Assembly (NCBI GenBank): GCA_034439735.1 | Contig: JAWXAX010000088.1 | Coordinates: forward strand, 1-44,413 | Source: Rhodothermales bacterium | GTDB lineage: Bacteria; Bacteroidota; Rhodothermia; Rhodothermales; JAHQVL01 | Length of the DNA: 44,413 nucleotides | Direction: 5' to 3' | In this document: positions 18,663-33,055 of the stretch, piece after piece | Numbering within the stretch: position 1 is the first letter of the stretch | Layout of the letters: each line of letters opens with the position of its first letter | The notes under the pieces: model-generated | Told to the model about the DNA's origin: nothing | Databases searched by the model: none | Seen by the model: only the letters and a program-made list of their open reading frames with translations | Program-made: the position numbers and the translations under genes

Positions 18663-20120
18663 ATGGAACTTGTTGAGGTACTTTCTGAACGCACGTTCTA
18701 CGACCGGCTTCCGCGTAGAGGGGAATGGCTTGTCTCCTACCTCAGACACCGCCTGCAGAACGTCCTGGTGCTTGCCGCGAGCGACATGATCGCCATCGTA
18801 CTGGCTTTTCTACTGGCCGGCTCGATTCGCCTGTTCTGGCAGGGCGCGCTACTGATCCCGGATTGGGCCTGGTATCTGATCCCCGCCTGGTGGATCGGCA
18901 CGGCCATCACACAACTTTTGCCCAGTTGGGGGCTCGGCCCGGTCGAGGAACTCCGACGAACGGTCCTGCTGCTCATTGTAATATTCGCCGGCGCCGCCGT
19001 CGTGTTGTTTATTAGCAAGGCCTCCGAGTCCGTCAGCCGTATCACCCTCACCCTCTCCTTCCTGTTCAGCGTCGTAACCGTCCCGTTCATGCGGATGCTG
19101 GTCAAGCACCTCCTGATCCGGCTCGGGGTCTGGGGGCTGCCCACGGTCATCTACGGCGGCGGGGAGTTCGCGGAGCGCATCGTGCGCTTCCTCCAGGCGG
19201 AAAAGGGCCTGGGCTACAAACCCATTGGCATCTTCGACGACGACCCATCCTCCTGGAATACCGCGCTACTCAACGTTCCGATCGAAGGCGGGACCAACCT
19301 CGTGACGCCGGAAGCATCGGTGGCCATCCTCGCGATGCCGAGTATGTCCAGTGCTCGCGCCACCGAACTGCTGGAAGGCCCGCTCTCGTATTACCGCACG
19401 GTGTTGCTCGTGCCGGACCTCCTGGAGTCGCCCTCGCTCTGGGTCAAGCCGCGCGACCTGAGCGGGATGCTGGGACTGGAGATCACGTCCAATCTCATCA
19501 ATCCGGTCTCCCGATTCGCCAAGCTTACGTTCGACGTGCTCGTCGTCCTGCTCACCAGTCCGATCTGGTTTCCGATCTGCGCGACGCTGGCCTTCCTGAT
19601 CTGGTTCGAGGACCGGCAGAGCCCCTTTTTCTTGCAGGAACGTGTTGGGCGCGGGGGCAAGATGTTTCGCACGTTTAAATTCCGCACCATGGTGCCCAAC
19701 GCGGAAGCGGTGCTACGGCAAAAGCTGGAGACCGACGAAGTGATGCGGACGGAGTGGGAGACGTTTTACAAGCTGCGGAAAGACCCACGGATTACCAAGA
19801 TAGGCCGGCTGCTTCGCCGGCTCAGCCTGGACGAATTGCCCCAATTGATCAACGTGCTGCGGGGCGAAATGTCGCTTGTGGGCCCTCGCCCCCTGCCCAC
19901 CTATCACTGCAATGAACTGCCGCGACGCGTCCGCGAATTGCGCGAGCGGGTTCGGCCGGGCATCACGGGGCTGTGGCAGGTGTCCGGCCGGAGCGACACC
20001 GGCAACGAGGGCATGGAGCAGTGGGATCCCTACTACGTCCGAAACTGGTCGCTGTGGCTGGATGCGGTCATCCTCGTACGCACCATCACGGCGGTCTTGA
20101 AAGGCTCGGGCGCCTACTGA
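18663..20120 (+). CDS. Polyprenyl-phosphate sugar-1-phosphate transferase (WbaP-like priming enzyme)
   Basis: A 485-residue membrane enzyme with the WbaP layout: four to five N-terminal membrane segments (about 35-150), a nucleotide-binding-like middle domain (VIYGGGEFAERIVRFLQ), a membrane hairpin (about 280-310) and the C-terminal bacterial sugar transferase domain with FKFRTMV, LRRLSLDELPQLINVL, MSLVGPRPLP and RPGITGLWQVSGRSD. It starts repeat-unit assembly by moving a sugar phosphate (often galactose- or glucose-1-phosphate) from UDP-sugar to undecaprenyl phosphate. Its 3' end overlaps the convergent PEGA gene by seven bases, so no terminator separates them. The two inverted repeats upstream suggest separate control of this committed step. 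Confidence 0.93.
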   Translation: MELVEVLSERTFYDRLPRRGEWLVSYLRHRLQNVLVLAASDMIAIVLAFLLAGSIRLFWQGALLIPDWAWYLIPAWWIGTAITQLLPSWGLGPVEELRRTVLLLIVIFAGAAVVLFISKASESVSRITLTLSFLFSVVTVPFMRMLVKHLLIRLGVWGLPTVIYGGGEFAERIVRFLQAEKGLGYKPIGIFDDDPSSWNTALLNVPIEGGTNLVTPEASVAILAMPSMSSARATELLEGPLSYYRTVLLVPDLLESPSLWVKPRDLSGMLGLEITSNLINPVSRFAKLTFDVLVVLLTSPIWFPICATLAFLIWFEDRQSPFFLQERVGRGGKMFRTFKFRTMVPNAEAVLRQKLETDEVMRTEWETFYKLRKDPRITKIGRLLRRLSLDELPQLINVLRGEMSLVGPRPLPTYHCNELPRRVRELRERVRPGITGLWQVSGRSDTGNEGMEQWDPYYVRNWSLWLDAVILVRTITAVLKGSGAY

Positions 20121-20920
20121 CGCACGAGTCGGATCGCGAGCACCCCGATGCCGACCTGCATCGCGCCGAGAGCGACGGCCGCGCTTCGGTCATACCGCTG
20201 GAAACTGCCCCGAAGCCGTGGATCGCCGTCTACCGCATAGAGCTCGTAACGGGAATCGGCTTTCATCTTATAATGGACCGCCAGCACCCCGGAAGCCACG
20301 GCGGCTCCACCCAGGGCGACGTTGAGCCAGCGCCCACGCGGTCTCCGGACCAGCTCGTCGACGGCGTCGAGCGCCAGGTCCGGCGCGGCCGGCTGCAGGG
20401 TTTCATCGTGCCGGTTCCAGATGCGATCCCCGGGGGTGAGTCGTTTTAATTCATACCCATCCTTTTGAAGCAGAAGCACACCCATCAGCGGCGCGGGAGC
20501 CGTGTGGAGCAGCGGCGTCGTACCGAGTAATGAGCGCCCCGCCGGCGTTTCGAGCAACACATTGGCGTCGAACGGATCGGAGGTGATCGCGTAATGAAAC
20601 ATAAAATCCAACGTGACATCCAGAGTATCCACGGTAAGCAGGTTCACGGATACGTGTGCTGGCGTCATTGACCAGTTGTCACCCGAGGGATAGACGAGGC
20701 GGAGCCGGGTCGTTTCGCGGGGCACCACAAACCACTGCGTCTGGGCTCGGCCGAGATACAACGAGTCCGCATAGACGAGCGCATCTGGCGTATTACTCCT
20801 GAGGGAAATGACCGCCGCTTCCTGGGCGACTGCCGGCACGGTCGCAGCGAACGCCAGCAAGCCGGCAACCCAGGCGGCGGATAAGGAGGGGGCCAGGCGC
20901 GGGAATCGTTCCATCTTCAT
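20114..20920 (-). CDS. Exported protein with PEGA-like repeats and a C-terminal hydrophobic segment
   Basis: A 268-residue protein with a signal peptide ending at about A32 (VPAVAQEA). Two PEGA-like segments follow: ISLRSNTPDALVYADSLYLG (about 38-57), and a later one with VLLETPAGRSLLGTTPL and LLLQKDGYELKRL, matching the V-x-S/T-x-P-x-G...LG-x-TP...GY pattern. A hydrophobic stretch around 200-215 and one at the C-terminus could anchor it. PEGA domains are small beta domains found on surface and envelope proteins; a precise role is not known. Its start abuts the stop of the lipoprotein gene upstream, with no base between them, so the two are translationally linked. A later ATG at 20914 is possible. 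Confidence 0.75.
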   Translation of the reverse strand: MKMERFPRLAPSLSAAWVAGLLAFAATVPAVAQEAAVISLRSNTPDALVYADSLYLGRAQTQWFVVPRETTRLRLVYPSGDNWSMTPAHVSVNLLTVDTLDVTLDFMFHYAITSDPFDANVLLETPAGRSLLGTTPLLHTAPAPLMGVLLLQKDGYELKRLTPGDRIWNRHDETLQPAAPDLALDAVDELVRRPRGRWLNVALGGAAVASGVLAVHYKMKADSRYELYAVDGDPRLRGSFQRYDRSAAVALGAMQVGIGVLAIRLVRQ

Positions 20921-22096
20921 TTACTCGGTTACGGCCGTCTCCGCAACGCGGAAGGCGACGAGTCGTTGAGGTTCCGAAAGCACGAACACCATGTCGTCGG
21001 TTGCCGCCATAGCGGATTGGACGCGGCCGGGCATCGCATACTCCCAGAGCTTGAGGCCCGTGTTTCTATCCAGCGCCACCAATTCCCGTCCAAGCGTGCC
21101 GGCATAGACGGTGCGTTGCGTCATCAGCGGGGCGGCGGTCACCGGCGCCTCTACATCGACGCTCCATAATTCAGTCCCACTCAGCGCGCGAATCGCCCGC
21201 ACAAACCCATCCGTCGTACCAACGACCAGGACGCCGTCGCGCGGGTCGAAGGCGGTGGCGGAGAAGCGAACCGTGGTGTCCGGCAGCGCCAGCGTCCAGC
21301 GCGTCTCGCCGGTGCGGGCGTCCAGGCCGTACATCCGGCCACGTGTGGTCGGGACGATGACCACGCCGGAACCCAGGCCCAGGGATTGGAGCACCGGCGT
21401 GTGCAGATCCCGCCGCCAGCGACGGACGCGATCCACGACATCCACTCCGAACACTACGCCGGCCTCGTTGGCCACATAAACCATGGGCCCATCCGCGACA
21501 GGAGTACTGAGGACATAGGCCATGGAATCGAGGGCATGCGCCCAGCGCTCGTGGCCCTGTTCCACCTCAACCACGCGGAGCATGGCCGTGGCATCGATGA
21601 CGACGGCGAGGGAATCAAGCGCGAGCACGCCGGCTTCGACCGACGCCTCGCGCAGTTTCCAGGCTTCCTTGCCCCGAACGAGATCGAATCCCGTAATGGA
21701 TTCCTTGCGCTTGGCTCCCGGCACGAGCAGCATCGTGCCGGCGATGGCCATCCCCCCTTCGACAGGCGCACTAAATCGAACGCGCCCTACCCGTTTGCCT
21801 TTCTCGACATCGAGGGCGAGCAGTTGACCTTTTCGGTTGGCGACCAGAACGAGGTCGCCGGCAACGAGGACCGACCCGGGCCCGGTGCCGGCCCCGACAT
21901 CGAATTCCCAGGCTTCTTCCAGCGGAGGCTCGATACGCCAATCGGCCATCGACGTGCGCGCCAGGTTGGCGCCCGACGACAGCCAGTCGTCGGGCTCGAT
22001 CGTGCGTGACGTGTAGGAAAACGAGTTGCAGCCGGCGAGCGTTAGCGCCAGAAGCACAATCGACAGGAGCGAAGCCGCGGGGGTGCTAGAAGTCAT
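20921..22096 (-). CDS. Lipoprotein with PQQ-like beta-propeller repeats (BamB-like fold)
   Basis: About 391 residues from the ATG at 22096. The signal peptide ends in the lipobox LAGC (20-23), so C23 should be lipidated. The rest is a propeller of PQQ-like repeats: LLALDVEKGKRVGRVRFS, ITGFDLVRGKEAWKL, VFGVDVVDRVRRWRRDL, MYGLDARTGETRWTLAL, VRAIRALSGTELWSVDV and LVALDRNTGLKLWEYAM, each with the G-x-x-x-W tail. This fold is shared by BamB, which helps the BAM complex, and by several periplasmic dehydrogenases. No cofactor-binding residues are evident, so a structural role is more likely. An open frame extends 30 codons further, but the lipobox spacing fixes the later start. It overlaps the end of the upstream barrel gene by 11 bases. 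Confidence 0.85.
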   Translation of the reverse strand: MTSSTPAASLLSIVLLALTLAGCNSFSYTSRTIEPDDWLSSGANLARTSMADWRIEPPLEEAWEFDVGAGTGPGSVLVAGDLVLVANRKGQLLALDVEKGKRVGRVRFSAPVEGGMAIAGTMLLVPGAKRKESITGFDLVRGKEAWKLREASVEAGVLALDSLAVVIDATAMLRVVEVEQGHERWAHALDSMAYVLSTPVADGPMVYVANEAGVVFGVDVVDRVRRWRRDLHTPVLQSLGLGSGVVIVPTTRGRMYGLDARTGETRWTLALPDTTVRFSATAFDPRDGVLVVGTTDGFVRAIRALSGTELWSVDVEAPVTAAPLMTQRTVYAGTLGRELVALDRNTGLKLWEYAMPGRVQSAMAATDDMVFVLSEPQRLVAFRVAETAVTE

Positions 22097-25037
22097 AACC
22101 AAAGAAGAATTGCCGGAACATCCGGTCGGAGGGCACCCAATCGCGGTAGGAATAACCGAGATCATAGCGCAGCACGATGCCTCCAAAGAGGTTCATCCGC
22201 AGACCAACACCAAGCGCGCCCAGCGTCTGCCCGGTTCGGATATTCGGCTGCGCGTCGTTGTAGCCGTCGTTCCAGGCGTGCGCGGCGTCGAAGAATAGCG
22301 CGCCCCGCAGGTTGGCCACTCCGAATGGCGCGAGCACCGGGATATAGATGGTCGGGTTGTTCAGTATCGGAAAGCGGAGTTCGTTGGAGACGAACCACAT
22401 TTTTTTGCCGCGAACGCTGAACAGACGCTGGCCGCGCAGGTCCCAGCTCCCGCCCAGGATAAAGAGCCGCGCCTCGCGCCCCTCGTTGAGCCGGCCGACC
22501 ACGCGCGACGCAAACGTGAGCTGGCGCGTTAGGCGGAGATAATACCGGATATCGGCCATCAGGCTGAAATAATTGACGTTGGAATACCGTACGTCCGACG
22601 TGTAGCCGGCCGTCAGGTTGGCGCGCCAGCCCTGCATGGGCCCATTCATACCGTAGAGCGTGTTGTCGTGCACGAGGGAGATCGTATTCGACAGCAAAAT
22701 GGCTTCTCGATTGATCTGCTCGACCGGGATCTCGCGGTGATTCCAGTTCAGTGACGTACTCAGCTCGACGCGCTGGAACATGGAGATCGGGTAGCTGACA
22801 GCGCCCATGCCGCCATAAATCGTCTCAAAGACAAACGGAAAGCTCGTCGGGGCGTCGGGGTCCGTAATGTCGTAGCGTTCGCCGCCGTACCGATACAGAC
22901 CGTAGGAATAATTGGTCCTCCGGTGGGTCTGCACTCGGGTGACAGCCACGTTCATGCTCTGGAGGAAGTCCTGCCGGGAGCGGCCCAGGTTGAAGAGCGT
23001 GAGGAACCACCGGTCGTTGCTCATCAGGTCCGACACGGCGACGAGAGCACCGCCGTAGGTGCCGAGCACCTGATTCTGGCTGACCATGCCCTGCGCGACA
23101 TCGAGCGAATACTTGCGCTTATAGGGGTTCAGCGTCACCTCGCTCTCGGCGTCGATGCGATCGAAAGCCCAGTGTTCACCGGTCAGGGTGATCGGGTGTT
23201 CGATTTCGGTGCTCGGATGTAGCAACAGTGAATCGGCGCCGGCGAGCGTCCGGATCGTAAAGCTCATCTGCTCGAAGCTGGTGAAGACGATCCGGCCGTC
23301 GCGCGTCCAGACAGGATCGTACGCTGCCGTGGTAATGTCGGTGAGACGGCTGGCGGTTCGCGTCAGGGTGGGCGCCGTCAGCAGGTTCTCGATGGGCGTG
23401 CGCGAGGCCGAGGCGACGGCTGGCGGCACGCCAATCTCCTGTGTCATGTCGATCGCCCAGATATTCTGCGGCCCGAACCGCCCGACACTGTCTCGTCGGG
23501 CGCTGGTATACAGCAGGAATCGCCCATCCGGAGTCCACTGCGGTGAGAAATCGTGCTGGGTGCCGAAGGTGACGTAGCGGATCGAGCCGTCGTCCAATCC
23601 GTAGGTGAACAGATTGTAGGCGCCCTCATCGCCGGATGACGTGCGGTCGGACGAGAAGGCGATATGCCGACCGTCCGGGCTCCAGGATGGATCGCGTTCG
23701 TCGTAACTGTCGTTGGTAAGCTTGGTCAGCGTCTCTGTGCGGGTGTCGAAGCGATACAGATCGTTAAATCCGCTCCGGTCGATCGAGGTAAAGGCCAGCT
23801 GTTCACCTTCTGGATCCCAGGAGGGCGAGTATACCGCGATCAAGTCGTCGAACTGATACGACGCCGCCAATCGATCGGCGACGAGATCGTATACATGCAG
23901 GCTATTGCTGCCCCCGCTTTTGGTGACAAAGGCCAGCTTACCATCGGCCGAGATGCTCGTCCGGCTTTCGAAAAAGTGGAAGGCCTCAAAGCGATGATCG
24001 CGTTCTCCCTTGATCAGCACCCGCTCTTTGCCCGTCGGCCGGAAGAGGGAGTCCAGCTTCACCTCATAGAGGTTGGTGTATCCGGTCCGGTTTGCGATGT
24101 AATACACTTTCCGGGTGCCGTCGGCGAACTCGTAGAACGCCGGCTTCGAACTGAACCCCGGCCGCGATAACGGCTTCGACATGAGCGAAGGCGGCGCGGT
24201 CGTGGCCAGTTCCGGGTAATATTGCTCCTTCATCCACGCGACCCACCGGTCGGAGATGCGGGTGAAGTCCTCGTGTAGCGTCAACTCAAGCACTTTTCGG
24301 AAATCCGTCTCCTTCCAGAAGTTGTCGATCAGCCGGAGAATCTTTTCCTCGCCGTACGTCTGCGAGATAAATCGAAAAACGGCCTCGCCCTCCTTATACA
24401 TGAGGTACGTGCCGCTGATGCGGTGCATGCTTTCGAGGGGCACCAGGTAGTTCGAGAAGATAGCGTCTCGCATCACCATCTCGTGCTGATAATCCGGTTC
24501 GCCGGACCAATACTCGGCCAGCCCTTCCGTAAACCAGAGCGGCGGTAGTCGGTTGGCCGGGATGCGGTATTCCTTCAGCACCCGGAGCACTTTCACGAAC
24601 GTAAACACATGGACGAGTTCGTGGCGGATCACCCGGCGGAATTTGTGGATATCGCCGTTGGCCGGGATGACGACGCGCCCTTTCAAAAACTCAAAAAACC
24701 CGCCGACGCCGTCCGGAATAAAACCGGACGTGGTGTTCGTTTGCTTAAAGTGGAGGTTGGACGAGTAGAAGATGAGCGGCACACGGTGGTTGAGCGTGTA
24801 GTTAAACCGATTCTCCAACTCGGCATACACGGTTTCAGCGAACTGCGCCCCATACTCCGCCAGCTCCTGCATCTCGGGGTAATAGAGCACATCGAAGTGC
24901 TCGGTCTTCATCACCTGCCAGTCGAAATTCTCGTACTGGATCTTGTTGCGGCCGAAGTGATACTGCGCCTGTGCCGGCTGGATGACGCACAATAGCCCGA
25001 GAAGTAGCGTAACAACGCCCTGTCGAAATGTCGCCAT
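22086..25037 (-). CDS. Exported metalloprotease-like protein with TolB-like propeller and outer-membrane barrel
   Basis: 983 residues from the ATG at 25037, chosen because a signal peptide starts there (ending QPAQAQ, residues 20-25). The frame is open 58 codons further up without similarity. Domain 1 (about 30-330) has HELVH (139-143) and downstream WFTEGLAEYW with E171, the zinc-ligand layout of gluzincin/MA-type metallopeptidases. Domain 2 (about 350-650) has TolB/WD40-like repeats: SPSWDPEGEQLAFTS, DPSWSPDGRHIAFSS, SPQWTPDGRFLLYTS and DPVWTRDGRIVFTS. Domain 3 (about 660-983) is rich in alternating aromatic strands and ends in ...FFFGYDF, the terminal-Phe signal of outer-membrane proteins. 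The barrel would anchor the protein in the outer membrane. Whether the first two domains face the periplasm or the outside is not visible. Confidence 0.88.
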   Translation of the reverse strand: MATFRQGVVTLLLGLLCVIQPAQAQYHFGRNKIQYENFDWQVMKTEHFDVLYYPEMQELAEYGAQFAETVYAELENRFNYTLNHRVPLIFYSSNLHFKQTNTTSGFIPDGVGGFFEFLKGRVVIPANGDIHKFRRVIRHELVHVFTFVKVLRVLKEYRIPANRLPPLWFTEGLAEYWSGEPDYQHEMVMRDAIFSNYLVPLESMHRISGTYLMYKEGEAVFRFISQTYGEEKILRLIDNFWKETDFRKVLELTLHEDFTRISDRWVAWMKEQYYPELATTAPPSLMSKPLSRPGFSSKPAFYEFADGTRKVYYIANRTGYTNLYEVKLDSLFRPTGKERVLIKGERDHRFEAFHFFESRTSISADGKLAFVTKSGGSNSLHVYDLVADRLAASYQFDDLIAVYSPSWDPEGEQLAFTSIDRSGFNDLYRFDTRTETLTKLTNDSYDERDPSWSPDGRHIAFSSDRTSSGDEGAYNLFTYGLDDGSIRYVTFGTQHDFSPQWTPDGRFLLYTSARRDSVGRFGPQNIWAIDMTQEIGVPPAVASASRTPIENLLTAPTLTRTASRLTDITTAAYDPVWTRDGRIVFTSFEQMSFTIRTLAGADSLLLHPSTEIEHPITLTGEHWAFDRIDAESEVTLNPYKRKYSLDVAQGMVSQNQVLGTYGGALVAVSDLMSNDRWFLTLFNLGRSRQDFLQSMNVAVTRVQTHRRTNYSYGLYRYGGERYDITDPDAPTSFPFVFETIYGGMGAVSYPISMFQRVELSTSLNWNHREIPVEQINREAILLSNTISLVHDNTLYGMNGPMQGWRANLTAGYTSDVRYSNVNYFSLMADIRYYLRLTRQLTFASRVVGRLNEGREARLFILGGSWDLRGQRLFSVRGKKMWFVSNELRFPILNNPTIYIPVLAPFGVANLRGALFFDAAHAWNDGYNDAQPNIRTGQTLGALGVGLRMNLFGGIVLRYDLGYSYRDWVPSDRMFRQFFFGYDF

Positions 25038-25322: not shown

Positions 25323-26393
25323 TTATACTTTTGCCAGCGCGTCCTTCAGCTGGTCGATGAGCCCGATCGGCGTAGGGTCGACGCCACGCAGGTAGGCGGC
25401 GTACAGGCTCGCCCAGTCGCCCAGGTTGATGAGCGACACCATCCGGGTCAGACGATGGTCGCCCTCGGATTGGACTTCGGCCCAGCTGCCGGCGCGCGTG
25501 TCGATGAGGGAGCGGGTTACGTTCATCCGGTGCTGGATACGCGGGTGGTCCTCGCGGTCCCGCAACACGATCACGCCCATGTGTTTCTGGAGCGATGGCG
25601 CGCCGGTTTGCTCCCAACCCATGATCTCGTTGTGATTCAATTCGGGGTACAGGTTGCCCGCGGCCATCATCTTACTATTTTCCTGAAATTGGCCCCGCCA
25701 ACGCAGATTGACGGCCTCGAGCAGTCCGTTCGAGCTATACACGAGCGGTATCCGTCCGACGACGCCATCCGCGATCGTCCGGGCGAGGTGGGTGGACGCG
25801 GGGTCGCTGTACCGCGCTGTCTGTGCACGCAGGAGGGCGTCTGCCTCGTCCCACGCGCCGTCGGCCACCTGGATGAGGCCCATTTTCCGGGCAAATACCA
25901 TCAACACGGCGAGCGAGTATCCGATGGCGGCGCGGGGCGACATACCGCCCGGGATCTGGGCGTAGGGTAACCCATGTTTCCGCGCCAGATCCAACAGTTG
26001 ACCCCCGGATGCGATGCACACGATGGTCGCCTTCCGTGCGATGGCTTCTTCGAAGCCGGAAAGGGATTCCTCGGTGTTGCCCGAGAAGCTCGAAGCGACG
26101 ACCAGCGTCCGGTCGTCCACGGACGCCGGAAGCGCATAGTGCCGAACGACCTGGATCGGAATGCGCGACTGGTCGACGGCGTAACACCGGAGCAAGTCGC
26201 CCGAGATGGCCGATCCGCCCATGCCGATCACCACCAGCTGGCGCATGGTTCTGGCGTCGATCGATAACGAGACGGCCTCGGCGATGGCGCGTCCCTGCTT
26301 GAAGTGGTCGGGGAAGCCGGCGACCAGGTCGTACATGCCCTGGGTGTCGATGCGGCGGATATCGGAAAGCGTCAGATTTGTTTGGGATTGCAT
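25323..26393 (-). CDS. Bifunctional phosphoglucose/phosphomannose isomerase (SIS domain)
   Basis: A 356-residue enzyme with two SIS folds. VIGMGGSAISGD (55-66) and ASSFSGNTEES (100-110) are the sugar-phosphate binding loops, and the segment with RWRGQFQENSK, YPELNHNEIMGWE holds the conserved Glu and His of the bifunctional PGI/PMI family. It interconverts glucose-6-phosphate, fructose-6-phosphate and mannose-6-phosphate in the cytosol, and could feed both glycolysis and mannose-type sugar nucleotides. It follows the PTS Enzyme I gene after 99 bases on the same strand, so it may share the transcript. About 285 bases separate it from the next gene downstream, with no clear terminator. Confidence 0.9.
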   Translation of the reverse strand: MQSQTNLTLSDIRRIDTQGMYDLVAGFPDHFKQGRAIAEAVSLSIDARTMRQLVVIGMGGSAISGDLLRCYAVDQSRIPIQVVRHYALPASVDDRTLVVASSFSGNTEESLSGFEEAIARKATIVCIASGGQLLDLARKHGLPYAQIPGGMSPRAAIGYSLAVLMVFARKMGLIQVADGAWDEADALLRAQTARYSDPASTHLARTIADGVVGRIPLVYSSNGLLEAVNLRWRGQFQENSKMMAAGNLYPELNHNEIMGWEQTGAPSLQKHMGVIVLRDREDHPRIQHRMNVTRSLIDTRAGSWAEVQSEGDHRLTRMVSLINLGDWASLYAAYLRGVDPTPIGLIDQLKDALAKV

Positions 26394-26492
26394 AACAACG
26401 AGTTATAATGATCAGGCATACCCGATCGGATCAATGGACGGAAACTACTGAAACGACACATCCGCGGCCGGCCGAGACGGCCCTGTGATGCA

Positions 26493-28364
26493 TCACGTGA
26501 GAGAGGCCTGGGGTGACGTGACGCCGGCGTCTGCGGCGCCTTCAGCGTCATCCCTCATGAACTGGAAATAGTCGATATCACGGTCTTTAAGCCAGCCAAG
26601 CAGGATGCGCGTGCGTGTCTTCTGATCGTGCGTCTCCATCATCTCCTGCGCCAGAAGAACAGCTTCCTGTCGTTCCATCGACCGGATCACGCGTTTGATT
26701 TCCGGCAAAAAAATGGGTGCGGCGCTCAATTCATGGACGCCGAGCCCCACAAGGACTGGGATGGCGCGTGGATCCGCCGCCAGTTCCCCGCACACACTGA
26801 CCGGAATACCCTCCTGTTCCGCCGCCTTCACGATTCTGGCGATGAGAAGCAGCACGGAGGGGTGGAGGGACTGGTAGAGGCCGGAGACGAGGTCGTTGCC
26901 ACGATCGACCGCCAGCACGTATTGCGTCAGGTCGTTTGTGCCGATCGAAAAGAAATCGACCTCACGGGCAAACCGTTCGGCCGCGAGGGCCACCGCCGGC
27001 ACCTCGACCATGATGCCAAAAGGAATGGCCTCGTCGAACGCCAGACCCTCCTCGCGCAGCGCGACCTTCACCTCCGCGATGAGCTGCTTGAGTTGCATCA
27101 CTTCCGACAGATCGGTGATCATCGGGACGAGGATGCGGACGGGACCGTGGGCGCTGGCGCGCAAAATGGCGCGCAACTGCGGCAACAGCAGGTCCTCCTG
27201 TTTATCCAGCAACACCCGGATACCGCGCCAGCCCAGAAACGGGTTGTGCTCCCGATGCGCCATGGGCAACATCTTGTCGCCCCCCAGATCTAGCAATCGC
27301 AGCGTCGTGGGACCGCCGCGATTGGCGAGCACGATGTCGCGGTAGGTGGCATACTGCTCATCCTCCGTACAGCTCAGCGTGCCTCGCATGAGAAACAGGA
27401 ACTCGGTGCGAAACAGCCCGATGCCCTCCGCGCCATACTCTTCCACGAGCTCGATCTCCTCCTTGAATTCGAGGTTGGCGCGGAGGAAGATGTGCAAGCC
27501 GTCTTTGGTCTCGGACGCGAGCGGGATGTAGGCGCGTTGTTCCTCCAGAAGCCGCTGGTACCGCTCGCGCAGGCGTTCATACACGCGGAGCGTCTTTCGG
27601 GTAGGGTTGACGATCACCCTACCGTTGAAGCCGTCCAGGACGACCCGATCGCCTTGCTCCACCTCGCGACTGAGACGATGCATGCTCACCACCGCCGGCA
27701 CCCCGAGCGCGCGGGCCATGATCGAAACGTGTGAGGTCGGCCCCCCGAAGTCCGTGGCGCAGCCCCGGATGTTACGCCGGCTGAACAGGATGACGTCGGC
27801 CGCTGTCAGGTTTTCGGCGACGACCACCGTCTCAGGTTCGATGGCCGAGATCAGCTTGCCGCGCCGGAGGTTGCGAATGATGCGGTCCTGGACGTCCAAC
27901 AAATCGTTTGCACGCTCCCGGATGTACTCGCTTTCGCTGGACTCCATTCGCTGGCGGCTCTCCGTGATGGCCGACTTGACGACGTAGCCGGCGTTGATGC
28001 ACTCACGGCGGATTCGGTCGATGACCTCTTGCTGGAACGCAACGTCTTGCAACATCAGGGATTGCGCCATAAAAATGCCAGCGCTGGTGTCCCCCAACTT
28101 CTCCCGTGCTACCGAGGCGATCTTTTCCAACTCACGCTCGGCGCTACTCACGGCACTGAGGAAGCGTGTGACTTCAAGTTCGACTTCTTCCGCCGGCACA
28201 TCGTGCCGCTGGACATCGATGGCTTCGCGCGCGTACAGATACACCGGCCCGATGGCGATACCCTGCGACACGCCGATCCCGTGTAGGATGCGCTCGCCGG
28301 CTTCGGCGGGCTCGGCAGCGCCCCGTTCGAGCGCGTCATAAAAGCTCGGCCTGTCTGCGTGCAT
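26493..28364 (-). CDS. ptsI: Phosphoenolpyruvate-protein phosphotransferase (PTS Enzyme I)
   Basis: A 623-residue protein, about 45 longer than the E. coli enzyme, mostly at the N-terminus and C-terminus. GGPTSHVSIMARALGVPAVV carries the phosphorylated histidine (about H212), the PEP-binding barrel has LFRTEFLFL and GTNDLTQYVLAVDRGND, and SVCGELAADP supplies the catalytic cysteine. It takes phosphate from PEP and passes it to HPr. The HPr gene lies 38 bases upstream. No Enzyme II component is in the window, so the pair may serve regulation or a distant permease. The C-terminal tail (after about 585) is charged and ends in a short low-complexity stretch. It lacks a GAF domain, so it is not the nitrogen-PTS form. 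Confidence 0.93.
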   Translation of the reverse strand: MHADRPSFYDALERGAAEPAEAGERILHGIGVSQGIAIGPVYLYAREAIDVQRHDVPAEEVELEVTRFLSAVSSAERELEKIASVAREKLGDTSAGIFMAQSLMLQDVAFQQEVIDRIRRECINAGYVVKSAITESRQRMESSESEYIRERANDLLDVQDRIIRNLRRGKLISAIEPETVVVAENLTAADVILFSRRNIRGCATDFGGPTSHVSIMARALGVPAVVSMHRLSREVEQGDRVVLDGFNGRVIVNPTRKTLRVYERLRERYQRLLEEQRAYIPLASETKDGLHIFLRANLEFKEEIELVEEYGAEGIGLFRTEFLFLMRGTLSCTEDEQYATYRDIVLANRGGPTTLRLLDLGGDKMLPMAHREHNPFLGWRGIRVLLDKQEDLLLPQLRAILRASAHGPVRILVPMITDLSEVMQLKQLIAEVKVALREEGLAFDEAIPFGIMVEVPAVALAAERFAREVDFFSIGTNDLTQYVLAVDRGNDLVSGLYQSLHPSVLLLIARIVKAAEQEGIPVSVCGELAADPRAIPVLVGLGVHELSAAPIFLPEIKRVIRSMERQEAVLLAQEMMETHDQKTRTRILLGWLKDRDIDYFQFMRDDAEGAADAGVTSPQASLT

Positions 28365-28402
28365 GGCGGGAGTACGTTCTGGTGGAAGCGGACGAGGTCG
28401 TT

Positions 28403-28672
28403 TTACTTCTCTTCGCCAAATCCGTCCGCGAAGATGCGGGCGATCTCATCGGCTGCCTGGTGTTCATCGGAGCCTTCAAAGGTTAGGGTAAGGATGGCGC
28501 CCTGTTCGGCAGCGAGCGTCATTACGCCAATAATGCTTTTGCCGTTGATCTCGTACCCGTCTTTTTTGATGTAGAAATCCGACTTGAATCGTGCGGCGGC
28601 ACGCACAATCATGGAAGCCGGCCGCGTATGCAGCCCCGCCTTGTTGGTTACCGTTACTTCCCGAACGAGCAT
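28403..28672 (-). CDS. ptsH: Phosphocarrier protein HPr
   Basis: An 89-residue protein of standard length from the ATG at 28672. GLHTRPAS places the phosphoacceptor at His15. NGKSIIGVMTLA places a serine at exactly position 46, the site that HPr kinase modifies in other bacteria. The frame is open a further 37 codons upstream, but that stretch has no family similarity and overlaps the polyprenyl synthase end. It carries phosphate from Enzyme I to acceptor proteins. The retained Ser46 suggests possible regulation by HPr kinase/phosphorylase, although no such gene is in the window. Next to ptsI, downstream of the polyprenyl synthase by 82 bases. Confidence 0.95.
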   Translation of the reverse strand: MLVREVTVTNKAGLHTRPASMIVRAAARFKSDFYIKKDGYEINGKSIIGVMTLAAEQGAILTLTFEGSDEHQAADEIARIFADGFGEEK

Positions 28673-28754
28673 CTCCGAATCACATGGTTTACACTGAATG
28701 GTACGGCAGGCACGCCCTGTCGAAAACGGTCGAAAACAGCCGGGGACCTCACCG

Positions 28755-29756
28755 TCAGTGGATGCGATGCTGAAGACGGGCAATCAGATGGTGGAGCGTC
28801 GCGCGGGCGGACGACTCGGGCAACACGGCGAGGCCGGCCAGGGCGGCTTCGCTATGCTTGAGGACGGCGCGGCGGGCTTCCTCGAGCACGCCGAGTCGGT
28901 CCATCCGCGCCCTGGCCTCGCCAATCTCGGCTTCAGGCAGCCCAGGCGTGTCCACGATGCGTCGGAACCAGGCGCGATCGTCGCCTTCGGCCACTTCCAG
29001 CGCCCTGAGCAGAAGATAGGTTTTTTTCGCCTCTTGAAGGTCCCCCCCTACTTTTTTTCCCCACCGTGCGTCGTCGGCCACGAGATCGAGCAAATCGTCC
29101 TGGATTTGAAAAGCAAGCCCGACATGCCGGCCCAGATCGCGTAGCGCTTCGCGGAGCTTGGCATCGGCGCCGGCAATCCAACCGCCCAGTTCAAACGACG
29201 TTTCGATGAGCGCGCCTGTTTTCCGATAGATCATCTGAAAATACTCTTCAACCGTCACATCGGACCGGGACTCGAATTCCTTGTCCATCGCCTGGCCTTC
29301 ACACAGATGGCGCACCATGCGGAAGTACGTCCCGAACAGGTCCGGCAGATGCGGGGAATCGACCCGGGCGAGCAGGTCGTAGGACAGGGCTACCAGGTAG
29401 TCCCCGCACAGAATGGCGGTGGACTCGTCCCACCGCGCGTGCACCGTGGCCGCGCCGCGCCGCGTGAGCGCATGGTCCATGATGTCGTCATGGACGAGGG
29501 TGAAGTTATGAAAGACTTCGACAGCCAGCGCCGCAGGCAACGCTCGGACCCGGTCGGCGCCGAGCGCCTCCGCCGTAAGGAGGAGCAACACGGGGCGGAC
29601 TCGTTTACCGCTGGCCTGGAGGACGTATCGAACCGGTTCATACAGGGATGGTGGTTCCAGTGCCGGCTCGAGGCCGAAGAGACCGGCATCGACCAGCTCA
29701 CGCAACGTCTGCGCCAGCTCATCGGGCGATCGGGCGGCGAGGGAAGCCTGCGGCAT
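28755..29756 (-). CDS. Polyprenyl (farnesyl/geranylgeranyl-type) diphosphate synthase
   Basis: A 333-residue all-helical trans-prenyltransferase. LVHDDIMDHALTRRG holds the first Asp-rich motif (D90, D91, D94), and FQIQDDLLDLVAD the second. GKRVRP (50-55) binds the allylic/IPP diphosphate. A phenylalanine lies five residues before the first Asp, which in this family tends to limit chain length to the C15-C20 range, so a GGPP/FPP product is more likely than a long quinone side chain. The gene starts 26 bases after adenylate kinase on the same strand and probably shares its transcript. Possible uses are carotenoids, archaeal-like lipids or quinones; the window does not decide. Confidence 0.9.
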   Translation of the reverse strand: MPQASLAARSPDELAQTLRELVDAGLFGLEPALEPPSLYEPVRYVLQASGKRVRPVLLLLTAEALGADRVRALPAALAVEVFHNFTLVHDDIMDHALTRRGAATVHARWDESTAILCGDYLVALSYDLLARVDSPHLPDLFGTYFRMVRHLCEGQAMDKEFESRSDVTVEEYFQMIYRKTGALIETSFELGGWIAGADAKLREALRDLGRHVGLAFQIQDDLLDLVADDARWGKKVGGDLQEAKKTYLLLRALEVAEGDDRAWFRRIVDTPGLPEAEIGEARARMDRLGVLEEARRAVLKHSEAALAGLAVLPESSARATLHHLIARLQHRIH

Positions 29757-29782
29757 AGGAGATCGGAGGTGTGCCCGCGCGA

Positions 29783-30436
29783 TCAGTCCGCTTCCGTGGC
29801 CGGGATATCGGCCATGATCAGATCCACGATGGCATCGTGGACTTCCTCTTGCGGCATCGTACCGTCGATACGGGCGTATTTCGGATGCCCTGAAAAATGG
29901 CTTTCGACGGGTTTTGTTTCTTCGTGGTAGATGCTCAGCCTTTTTCGAATGGCTTCCGGGCGATCGTCCGGGCGCTGTACGATGAGCGACGGATCCAGCG
30001 AGGCCGGCGGCGGCTCAAATTCGAGGTGGTAGTTCTCGCCAGTCTTTTTGTTGACCCTCCGGGCGGACAGACGCTCGACGATCACATCGTCGGGCACTAC
30101 CAGTGAGATGATGGCATCCAGGGGCGCGCGATTACGCGACAGGAACTGCGTCAACCACTCCGCCTGTTCGACCGTACGGGGATATCCATCCAGGATGAAT
30201 TGATCATAGCTCTGCTCCGCAATGGCTTCCTCCGTAATCTTCTTCATGACCGGGCCGGGCACCAACCGACCCTCGTTGATATAATCCTTCGCGATCGCAC
30301 CCACGGGCGATTTCTCCACGATGGCCGCACGGAGCATGTTGCCCGTGGAGATATGCTTGAGTGTAAATCGCTCGATGAGCCGGCCGGCCTGTGTGCCTTT
30401 CCCGGCGCCTGGCGGCCCAAATATCAGGATGCGCAT
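29783..30436 (-). CDS. adk: Adenylate kinase
   Basis: A 217-residue enzyme. GPPGAGKGTQ (7-16) is the P-loop, HISTGNMLRAA the AMP-binding segment, DGYPRTVEQAEW the conserved AMP/ATP site, and RRVNKKTGENYHLEF the start of the LID domain, which is of the long type and lacks the zinc cysteines. It equilibrates AMP, ADP and ATP in the cytosol. The start follows directly from the P-loop position. The gene is followed after 26 bases by the polyprenyl synthase. APS kinase and ATP sulfurylase elsewhere in the window consume ATP and release ADP/PPi, but no direct link is implied. Confidence 0.96.
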   Translation of the reverse strand: MRILIFGPPGAGKGTQAGRLIERFTLKHISTGNMLRAAIVEKSPVGAIAKDYINEGRLVPGPVMKKITEEAIAEQSYDQFILDGYPRTVEQAEWLTQFLSRNRAPLDAIISLVVPDDVIVERLSARRVNKKTGENYHLEFEPPPASLDPSLIVQRPDDRPEAIRKRLSIYHEETKPVESHFSGHPKYARIDGTMPQEEVHDAIVDLIMADIPATEAD

Positions 30437-31951: not shown

Positions 31952-33055
31952 TCATACCCTCTCCCCGCAACGTACCAGGAAATCGATCGTGTCGATGGCG
32001 TCCGGGCGCCAGTCCAGGGGGGGACGCTGAGCATCACCGGGCTGGCACCGAGCTACGTGCGTCTGCAGCCGAGGGCCCAGACGCTCTGTCATGGAGACGA
32101 TCTGCAGATCGTCTCGCCGAGCCTCCAGCCAGGTCTCCACCTCTTCCAGGCGTGTATACTCAGTCCAGCGGATGTGGCCCGGCTCCTGGGCCTCCGGCTC
32201 ACCCTTGCTAAGCAAAAAGGATAGGTCCTCGCCATAGGCATGCGGCATGCCCAGAGCCTGCAGCATGGCCTGACGCATCTTGAGCGAGGTGGGCGTTTTG
32301 TGATGGGCCGGAAATACGCCTCGAAAAGCGGCGAACGCCGCAAGCATGGCATCCGGCGGGGACCCCGCCGGCGCCCAGATCACGGCGACATTACGGCATC
32401 CCCTGCCCTCGTGCAACAGTGCGTCCTCGGCCATCGCTTCCAGTTCGTCCTCTGTCTCCCGACCATCGAGAATCCCCACCCCGAACCGGTGGCCCCGCAA
32501 CAACCGGCACGCCGGCCCGATGCCCTTTCCCTCACACACGGCCTCGATCTGTTCCAGCGTATCCCCATGGCCACTTGCAATAACGGATTTTGCCATCCGG
32601 GCGGCCGAATCAAACGGAACAAACTGGACGGGCAACCCTTCGACCCGCGACGCCACGCCAGCCATAAATGCCGGCAACAGATGGGGAGAACGCGACGATA
32701 GTGCGCCCAGATACCGATGCCCCGTCAACACCACCGCGAGCACATCCTGAAACTCCACAAACGGCACATTGCCGGGATTAAGCACCGCGATATCCATCGC
32801 TCGGGGCGTTCGACGGCCCTTGAGCCACGCACGCAGCCCGTCCGACGTAGCCAGCGCGACCTGCTGATTCACAGCGAACGCGATCGCCTCCTCGGTAAAG
32901 GTGTTGTCCAGCGCCAGTGTACGATCGACCGCCTCGGCGCGATCCGGAAACGCGGGATCACGCCAGAGGGCCGCCTGTTCAGTGATGGCGAGGATCAACG
33001 CCTCGGCATCAGTCGCCACCCGGGACGCCGTGATTGCCTTCCGCTTCGAGCTCAT
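31952..33055 (-). CDS. LuxC-type acyl-CoA reductase
   Basis: A 367-residue member of the aldehyde dehydrogenase superfamily, LuxC branch. The segment LLHEGRGCRNVAVIWAP (about 226-242) contains the catalytic cysteine in the C-x-N-V/P context of LuxC relatives, and AVLNPGNVPFVEFQDVL (about 90-106) is the conserved nucleotide-side motif of the Bacteroidota subgroup. The expected reaction is NAD(P)H-dependent reduction of an acyl-CoA or acyl-thioester to aldehyde. No luciferase or LuxD/LuxE partner is present. The start overlaps the end of the cytochrome c gene by 47 bases. A GTG at 33019 would shorten the overlap to 11 bases. Confidence 0.85.
   Translation of the reverse strand: MSSKRKAITASRVATDAEALILAITEQAALWRDPAFPDRAEAVDRTLALDNTFTEEAIAFAVNQQVALATSDGLRAWLKGRRTPRAMDIAVLNPGNVPFVEFQDVLAVVLTGHRYLGALSSRSPHLLPAFMAGVASRVEGLPVQFVPFDSAARMAKSVIASGHGDTLEQIEAVCEGKGIGPACRLLRGHRFGVGILDGRETEDELEAMAEDALLHEGRGCRNVAVIWAPAGSPPDAMLAAFAAFRGVFPAHHKTPTSLKMRQAMLQALGMPHAYGEDLSFLLSKGEPEAQEPGHIRWTEYTRLEEVETWLEARRDDLQIVSMTERLGPRLQTHVARCQPGDAQRPPLDWRPDAIDTIDFLVRCGERV

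Follow-up and report, generated by a model that had tools for sequence, protein, structure and literature searches.

A single gene in a contig of a Rhodothermales bacterium (JAWXAX010000088.1, assembly GCA_034439735.1; the whole stretch of 44,413 nucleotides is called the window below) encodes a zinc metalloprotease, a TolB-like propeller and an Omp85 outer-membrane barrel in one polypeptide. The gene lies at positions 22086 to 25037 on the minus strand and specifies 983 amino acids plus a stop codon. The union of the three parts in one chain is confirmed by the Pfam domains observed within the open reading frame (ORF) and by a predicted AlphaFold2 model that agrees with them. Related proteins from several phyla, here called group A, are inherited together with a directly downstream gene for a BamB-like lipoprotein, and this co-inheritance suggests a machine, as yet unstudied, that builds or polices the outer membrane. 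A preliminary description, made from the letters of the window, had already reported the span of the gene and the presence of a protease, a propeller and a barrel in one product, and both hold; it did not include the coding strand, the assignment of the barrel to Omp85, the BamB-like partner gene or a clade with a dead protease site.

Architecture and active site of the protease-propeller-Omp85 protein

The start codon is the ATG at 25037. With a TTG start the frame would extend to 25211; matches to homologues begin near the ATG. Residues 1-23 (24969..25037) form a signal peptide, assigned by eye to the Sec type, in which a hydrophobic run leads to AQA and residues 2-18 are helical in the model; cleavage would fall after residue 23. 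Three Pfam families match the chain above their curated cut-offs, namely Peptidase_MA_2 (residues 134-270, E value 4.7e-9), PD40 in three stretches (1.2e-20) and the Omp85 family PF01103 (residues 781-950, 1.4e-11), while the NCBIfam matches, among them TolB, Omp85 family, BamA and flagellinolysin, are all below threshold. The full-length AlphaFold2 model, computed from an alignment of 57 sequences, has a mean predicted local distance difference test score (pLDDT) of 86.8 and a predicted template modelling score (pTM) of 0.85. It comprises three domains: the N-terminal one is mixed alpha/beta, a propeller follows, and residues 643 to 981 contain 16 long strands. No POTRA family was detected in the protein with Pfam, and the stretch before the barrel is made up of the protease and the propeller.

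The N-terminal domain (residues 24-284; 24186..24968, minus strand) is a gluzincin metalloprotease, with both the HExxH motif plus downstream Glu ligand and the catalytic fold of that class. As the preliminary description had read it, the motif is HELVH; it occupies residues 139-143, the third ligand is E171 within the string WFTEGLAEY, and E175 and Y214 are also conserved. Folded alone, the domain reached a pLDDT of 86.0. Its best match among solved folds is the peptidase unit of M9 collagenases (Z score 17.2, 236 residues, 3.7 Å), after which M30 and M1 enzymes follow in the structure ranking, all of them gluzincins with Z scores from 17.2 to 13.7. The match to the M9 profile is weak (E value 0.0019), and identity in the structural alignment is about 13%.

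A whole-gene search found an ortholog in 37 of 40 relatives from the same order, and in the 32 of these that were aligned (five were not) H139, E140, H143 and E171 are invariant. Across 57 aligned members of a wider set, these four residues together with E175 and Y214 are likewise invariant, and HExxH with its Glu is kept in 20/20 more distant members from a pattern search and in 9/9 paralogues. The pattern used to search the named genomes contained WFTEGLAEY, which biases the counts for E171 and E175 there; the same-order and phylum sets, for which whole sequences or whole domains served as queries, are free of this bias. Chance occurrence of HExxH was rejected because the zinc residues are invariant in both aligned sets, and the active site, as judged from sequence conservation, is under selection. 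The mean majority fraction is highest in the peptidase (0.62), followed by the barrel (0.54) and the propeller (0.46), a ranking that fits an inward-facing house-keeping enzyme.

Residues 285-610 (23208..24185, minus strand) form a TolB-like propeller. The preliminary description had recognized the TolB likeness and counted four blades; the likeness holds and the count does not, since alignment with TolB (Z 26, about 242 residues, 2.2-2.3 Å) and with the six-fold design Pizza6 (Z 23.5) makes the propeller six-bladed. The barrel (residues 643-983; 22089..23111, minus strand) is predicted to have 16 strands, and no barrel-less fold was seen; its last residue is Phe, as had been described. It aligns with the barrel of Deinococcus radiodurans BamA (Z 23.9, 309 residues, 3.7 Å). 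The L6 motif of Omp85 proteins is of the VRGF/Y type with a central RG; here it reads LRGQ (residues 867-870), in the loop that joins strands 11 and 12, with R868 present in 57/57 and G869 in 52/57 aligned members, and an xRGx string is found in the C-terminal part of 20/20 divergent members. Both this RG motif and the 16-stranded BamA-type barrel, described as the defining feature of the superfamily (PMC4104836), place the protein among the Omp85 proteins. Conservation of the L6 loop is 0.66, and that of the other outer loops, which are mostly short and mostly poorly conserved, is 0.18-0.61.

Given the Omp85 fold, with its 16 strands and with L6 between strands 11 and 12, the N-terminus, and hence the protease and the propeller, should face the periplasm. 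If so, the earlier suggestion that both domains are displayed at the cell surface is probably wrong. It had also remarked that the annotation usual for related proteins, as Tol-like transport proteins, misses this layout; identity with TolB is indeed rejected (TIGR02800, 94.3 bits against a cut-off of 343.15). Identity with BamA is rejected as well (TIGR03303, 25.4 bits against 297.15), and the genome carries a separate BamA gene that scores 368.4 bits with the same model. Since the genome has its own BamA, the protease-propeller-Omp85 protein would be an extra machine beside it. In total, the Omp85 barrel family has 11 matches in the genome, of which 10 exceed the cut-off.

The BamB-like partner and the distribution of the family

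Directly downstream lies a gene for a BamB-like PQQ-propeller lipoprotein (20921..22096, minus strand), with the lipobox LAGC and a match above the Pfam cut-off to PQQ_2, a family of BamB-like fold (E value 1e-38). Its start codon is probably the ATG at 22096, which gives it an overlap with the 3' end of the Omp85 gene. Identity with BamB itself was rejected (TIGR03300, 159.1 bits against a cut-off of 285.2). The lipobox Cys is present in all 19 aligned partner sequences out of 69, and a stricter lipobox pattern matched 47 of the 69, partly because it is too strict.

Neighbouring genes were sought by six-frame profile search and in an even genome sample; longest-ORF calling picks antisense frames at high G+C content. 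With a profile built from the same loci, the partner was found in 69 of the 79 loci that extend at least 1500 nucleotides downstream; three of these matches are weak and more than 2.4 kb away, which leaves 66/79 loci with an adjacent partner. In the full set of 86 loci, at least two genomes occur in duplicate (L014/L073 and L024/L056). Among 69 adjacent pairs, three of them on loci with less than 1500 nucleotides downstream, the stop codon overlaps an in-frame ATG of the partner in 26, and an in-frame start codon lies between -14 and +3 from the stop in 49.

The even sample of 148 genomes from the window's phylum gives a second view of this association. The peptidase domain occurs at an E value of 1e-10 or better in 101 of them, and among the matches listed most lie in open frames of about 900-1200 amino acids, the length of a three-domain protein. 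Group A, taken here as a peptidase match at 1e-100 or better, is carried by 35 of the 148 genomes; 32 of the 35 have the partner (a model match over at least 220 positions), 30 of them directly downstream. A comparable partner match occurs in none of the 113 sampled non-carriers, five of which have partial matches. Likewise, no partner was found nearby in any of 13 loci of paralogues or pseudo-proteases whose flanks are available, one of which (L181) ends short downstream. On this genomic evidence, group A is shown to be evolutionarily paired with the BamB-like gene, the two being inherited together in several phyla.

In the tree, a fully supported branch sets group A apart from the remaining rows (29/29 tree rows). 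This tree is a quick one, with a long-branch warning for one pseudo-protease row, and was used only for the monophyly of group A and of the pseudo-protease clade. Records of group A come from Rhodothermales, Ignavibacteria, Calditrichota, KSB1, Marinimicrobia, Zixibacteria, Glassbacteria and Gemmatimonadota, and the wider family extends to Aminicenantes, WOR-3, Eisenbacteria and Delongbacteria. Members from the same phylum mostly group together, as in vertical descent, and the nearest named relative is in a Rhodothermaceae metagenome-assembled genome (L073, 67% identity). One copy on a contig filed as a Clostridiales metagenome-assembled genome (L131) groups with Aminicenantes, possibly through a binning or naming error. 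None of the 61 matching plasmid records covers 80% of the query, so that they include no full-length relative; the best annotated one, with 51% of the query covered, is named 'basic secretory protein-like protein'. PHROGs yielded only a weak match to the propeller.

There are several paralogues per genome, and that of the window has five peptidase matches. Three further paralogues in it share the same layout (L044, L045 and L046, with 977-1098 amino acids when counted from the predicted Met); L046 belongs with L049 and L052 to a very divergent group, and the counterparts of these paralogues in another genome (L184-L186 in G009) lack a BamB-like neighbour. Some paralogue frames are far longer, at 2140 and 1530 amino acids, either by real extension or possibly by chance read-through at high G+C content (matches at G032 C1:4531113-4532585, G004 C1:2964908-2966530 and G018 C1:2788512-2789933).

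The preliminary description had named loss of the zinc residues in all homologues as a refuting outcome, and this was not seen, as most keep them. The opposite idea, that the site is never lost, was rejected when a search for exceptions found a Bacteroidota clade without it. Among 20 divergent members taken from a domain search across the phylum, the site is intact in 13, and the other seven have lost HExxH and the Tyr; five of the seven also lack the ligand Glu, and all seven keep the barrel RG motif and the C-terminal Phe. These pseudo-protease members (L154-L159 and L162) are three-domain Bacteroidota proteins of 1092-1204 amino acids. In the quick tree they form one group with 100% support in the Shimodaira-Hasegawa-like approximate likelihood ratio test (SH-aLRT), so that a single loss suffices.

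Beyond the partner, a third gene of the run (20114..20920, minus strand) encodes an exported PEGA-like protein of 268 amino acids, whose PEGA match (E value 0.014) is below the cut-off; two of three scanned orthologues of this gene match PEGA at 8e-16 and 3e-15. An exported protein, with PEGA in some members, occupies this place in 55 of the 75 loci with at least 2500 nucleotides downstream. In some Gemmatimonadota, a gene for a HEAT-repeat protein with a cyclophilin-type prolyl isomerase lies upstream of the ortholog (L095 5836-7893); its product is of a folding-factor kind, and this cluster occurs in 6/86 loci, at position -1 in five. In Zixibacteria, the second downstream gene encodes, in place of the PEGA-like protein, a HEAT-repeat protein of about 730 amino acids (L100 11958-14144). 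Upstream in the window and on the same strand, positions 25323-30436 hold a run of PGI/PMI, PtsI, HPr, polyprenyl synthetase and adenylate kinase genes, parts of which are also found upstream of orthologues (the PtsI/HPr cluster in 35/86 loci, PGI/PMI in 24). Further along, a 367-amino-acid protein (31952-33055, minus strand) has no Pfam match at an E value of 0.01, and its cluster recurs in 14/86 loci.

Possible role at the outer membrane

We tentatively propose that group A proteins may well be periplasm-facing, BamB-assisted Omp85 machines with built-in proteolysis, somewhat like BepA. In such a machine, the usual periplasmic POTRA domains would be replaced by the gluzincin protease and the TolB-like propeller, and these soluble domains would hang under the barrel, in the periplasm. 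The propeller and the BamB-like partner might recruit or hold client polypeptides heading to or through the outer membrane, and the protease might cut clients that are misfolded, stalled or in need of processing, as BepA does on the β-barrel assembly machinery (BAM) complex. The protein would act beside the normal BamA and not in its place. The BamB-like partner and, in some phyla, the nearby prolyl isomerase point to clients bound for the outer membrane. BepA has been described as acting on BAM-bound substrates, and BamB as binding BamA (PMC13067283), a precedent that moderately favours a built-in BepA-like role.

Several observations weigh against this proposal. No POTRA domain was recognized, which leaves the protein without the module that Omp85 machines usually employ to handle clients, and the four M48 peptidase matches in the genome suggest that other enzymes may already do the work of BepA. 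Propellers of the TolB type occur in many unrelated proteins, too. An adjacent partner is absent from 13/79 loci, and 3/35 group A carriers have no long partner match; three of the 40 same-order relatives, all of one genus, have no ortholog of the group, so the gene is not universally essential. The pseudo-protease clade keeps the architecture, which implies that the scaffold can work without proteolysis. Moreover, the anatomy has been established partly by prediction, and it is from this anatomy and its context that we infer the function of the group.

Part of this evidence would also suit a scaffold. Heinz and Lithgow, who defined the WD40-Omp85 subfamily in 2014, likened it to a BamA-BamB fusion (PMC4104836), and on that model the protein would assemble outer-membrane proteins while its peptidase domain mainly binds clients, catalysis being secondary. 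The pseudo-protease clade, in which the fold and the barrel were retained and the catalytic residues disappeared in one loss on the tree, is what such a model would lead one to expect. However, the catalytic set is invariant in 57/57 members of the window's group, where the peptidase is the most conserved domain, and the existence of a separate BamB-like partner means that the propeller need not replace BamB; a mainly binding role for the peptidase is therefore unlikely. The intact site, of the collagenase/aminopeptidase type, could instead belong to a processing protease that acts on a single class of exported proteins or lipoproteins, by maturation or shedding, and uses the barrel mainly as an anchor, with several paralogues per genome serving different substrates. 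Yet a plain anchor needs neither an L6 motif with R868 in 57/57 members nor a BamB-like partner, and this explanation appears improbable.

Transport of the protease and the propeller through the barrel to the cell surface, for display or secretion of a type Vd-like kind, seems very unlikely. The passenger-Omp85 layout does resemble PlpD, first called a type Vd secretion system, but the enzyme domain of PlpD was later shown to be periplasmic (PMC11116518). About 600 residues of folded domains would also need to pass a 16-stranded barrel. In addition, the supposed passenger is the most conserved part of the protein, which is not expected of typical surface proteins.

The tentative proposal of a proteolytic machine can be extended to a self-contained system for assembly and quality control, with an insertase barrel, a client-docking propeller, a protease that removes failed clients and its own BamB-like lipoprotein. 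This would form a second system beside BAM in much of the Fibrobacteres-Chlorobi-Bacteroidetes (FCB) superphylum, with a Bacteroidota branch in which the protease has turned into a dead binding domain; it is a possible but rather doubtful picture. Outside Proteobacteria, the assembly and surveillance of outer-membrane proteins are still being elucidated, and structures of Bacteroidota BAM complexes date from 2025 (PMC12611786). An ancient Omp85 protein that carries its own protease and occurs in several phyla with a constant BamB-like partner predicts a concrete complex and active site, and the dead-protease clade offers a natural control that makes a role for proteolysis at an Omp85 machine directly testable.

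Comparison with known systems

TolB has the same propeller fold, whereas TolB itself is soluble and works in the periplasm as part of the Tol-Pal system. The M9 collagenase peptidase unit is the closest solved fold to the protease domain, and the other collagenase domains are absent here. There is also no match to PF00149, which we take to be the calcineurin-like phosphoesterase family and not a protease. That domain characterizes the 'Metallo' Omp85 subfamily, called Omp85-metalloprotease in PMC4104836. BepA similarly places a zinc protease at an Omp85 machine in the periplasm, but it is a separate M48 protein, whereas the protease described here is covalently part of the Omp85 protein. PlpD and the patatin-Omp85 proteins, as described in PMC11116518, share an enzyme domain N-terminal to a 16-stranded Omp85 barrel on the periplasmic side; they carry a patatin lipase and POTRA in place of the zinc protease and propeller.

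The closest relatives in layout are the WD40-Omp85 proteins, a subfamily listed among those not well characterized (PMC11116518). The protein has the WD40/TolB-type propeller N-terminal to an Omp85 barrel that defines them and, like them, lacks POTRA; the two are probably the same proteins or overlapping sets. The description of the subfamily in PMC4104836 names no peptidase, whereas the protein of the window contains a gluzincin domain with its site intact and is accompanied by a gene for a BamB-like partner. In the literature searched, no account was found of a protein that combines a gluzincin with a propeller and an Omp85 barrel. The propeller-Omp85 subfamily is thus known; what is new is the added gluzincin, the pairing of group A with a directly downstream BamB-like lipoprotein gene, and a natural pseudo-enzyme branch.

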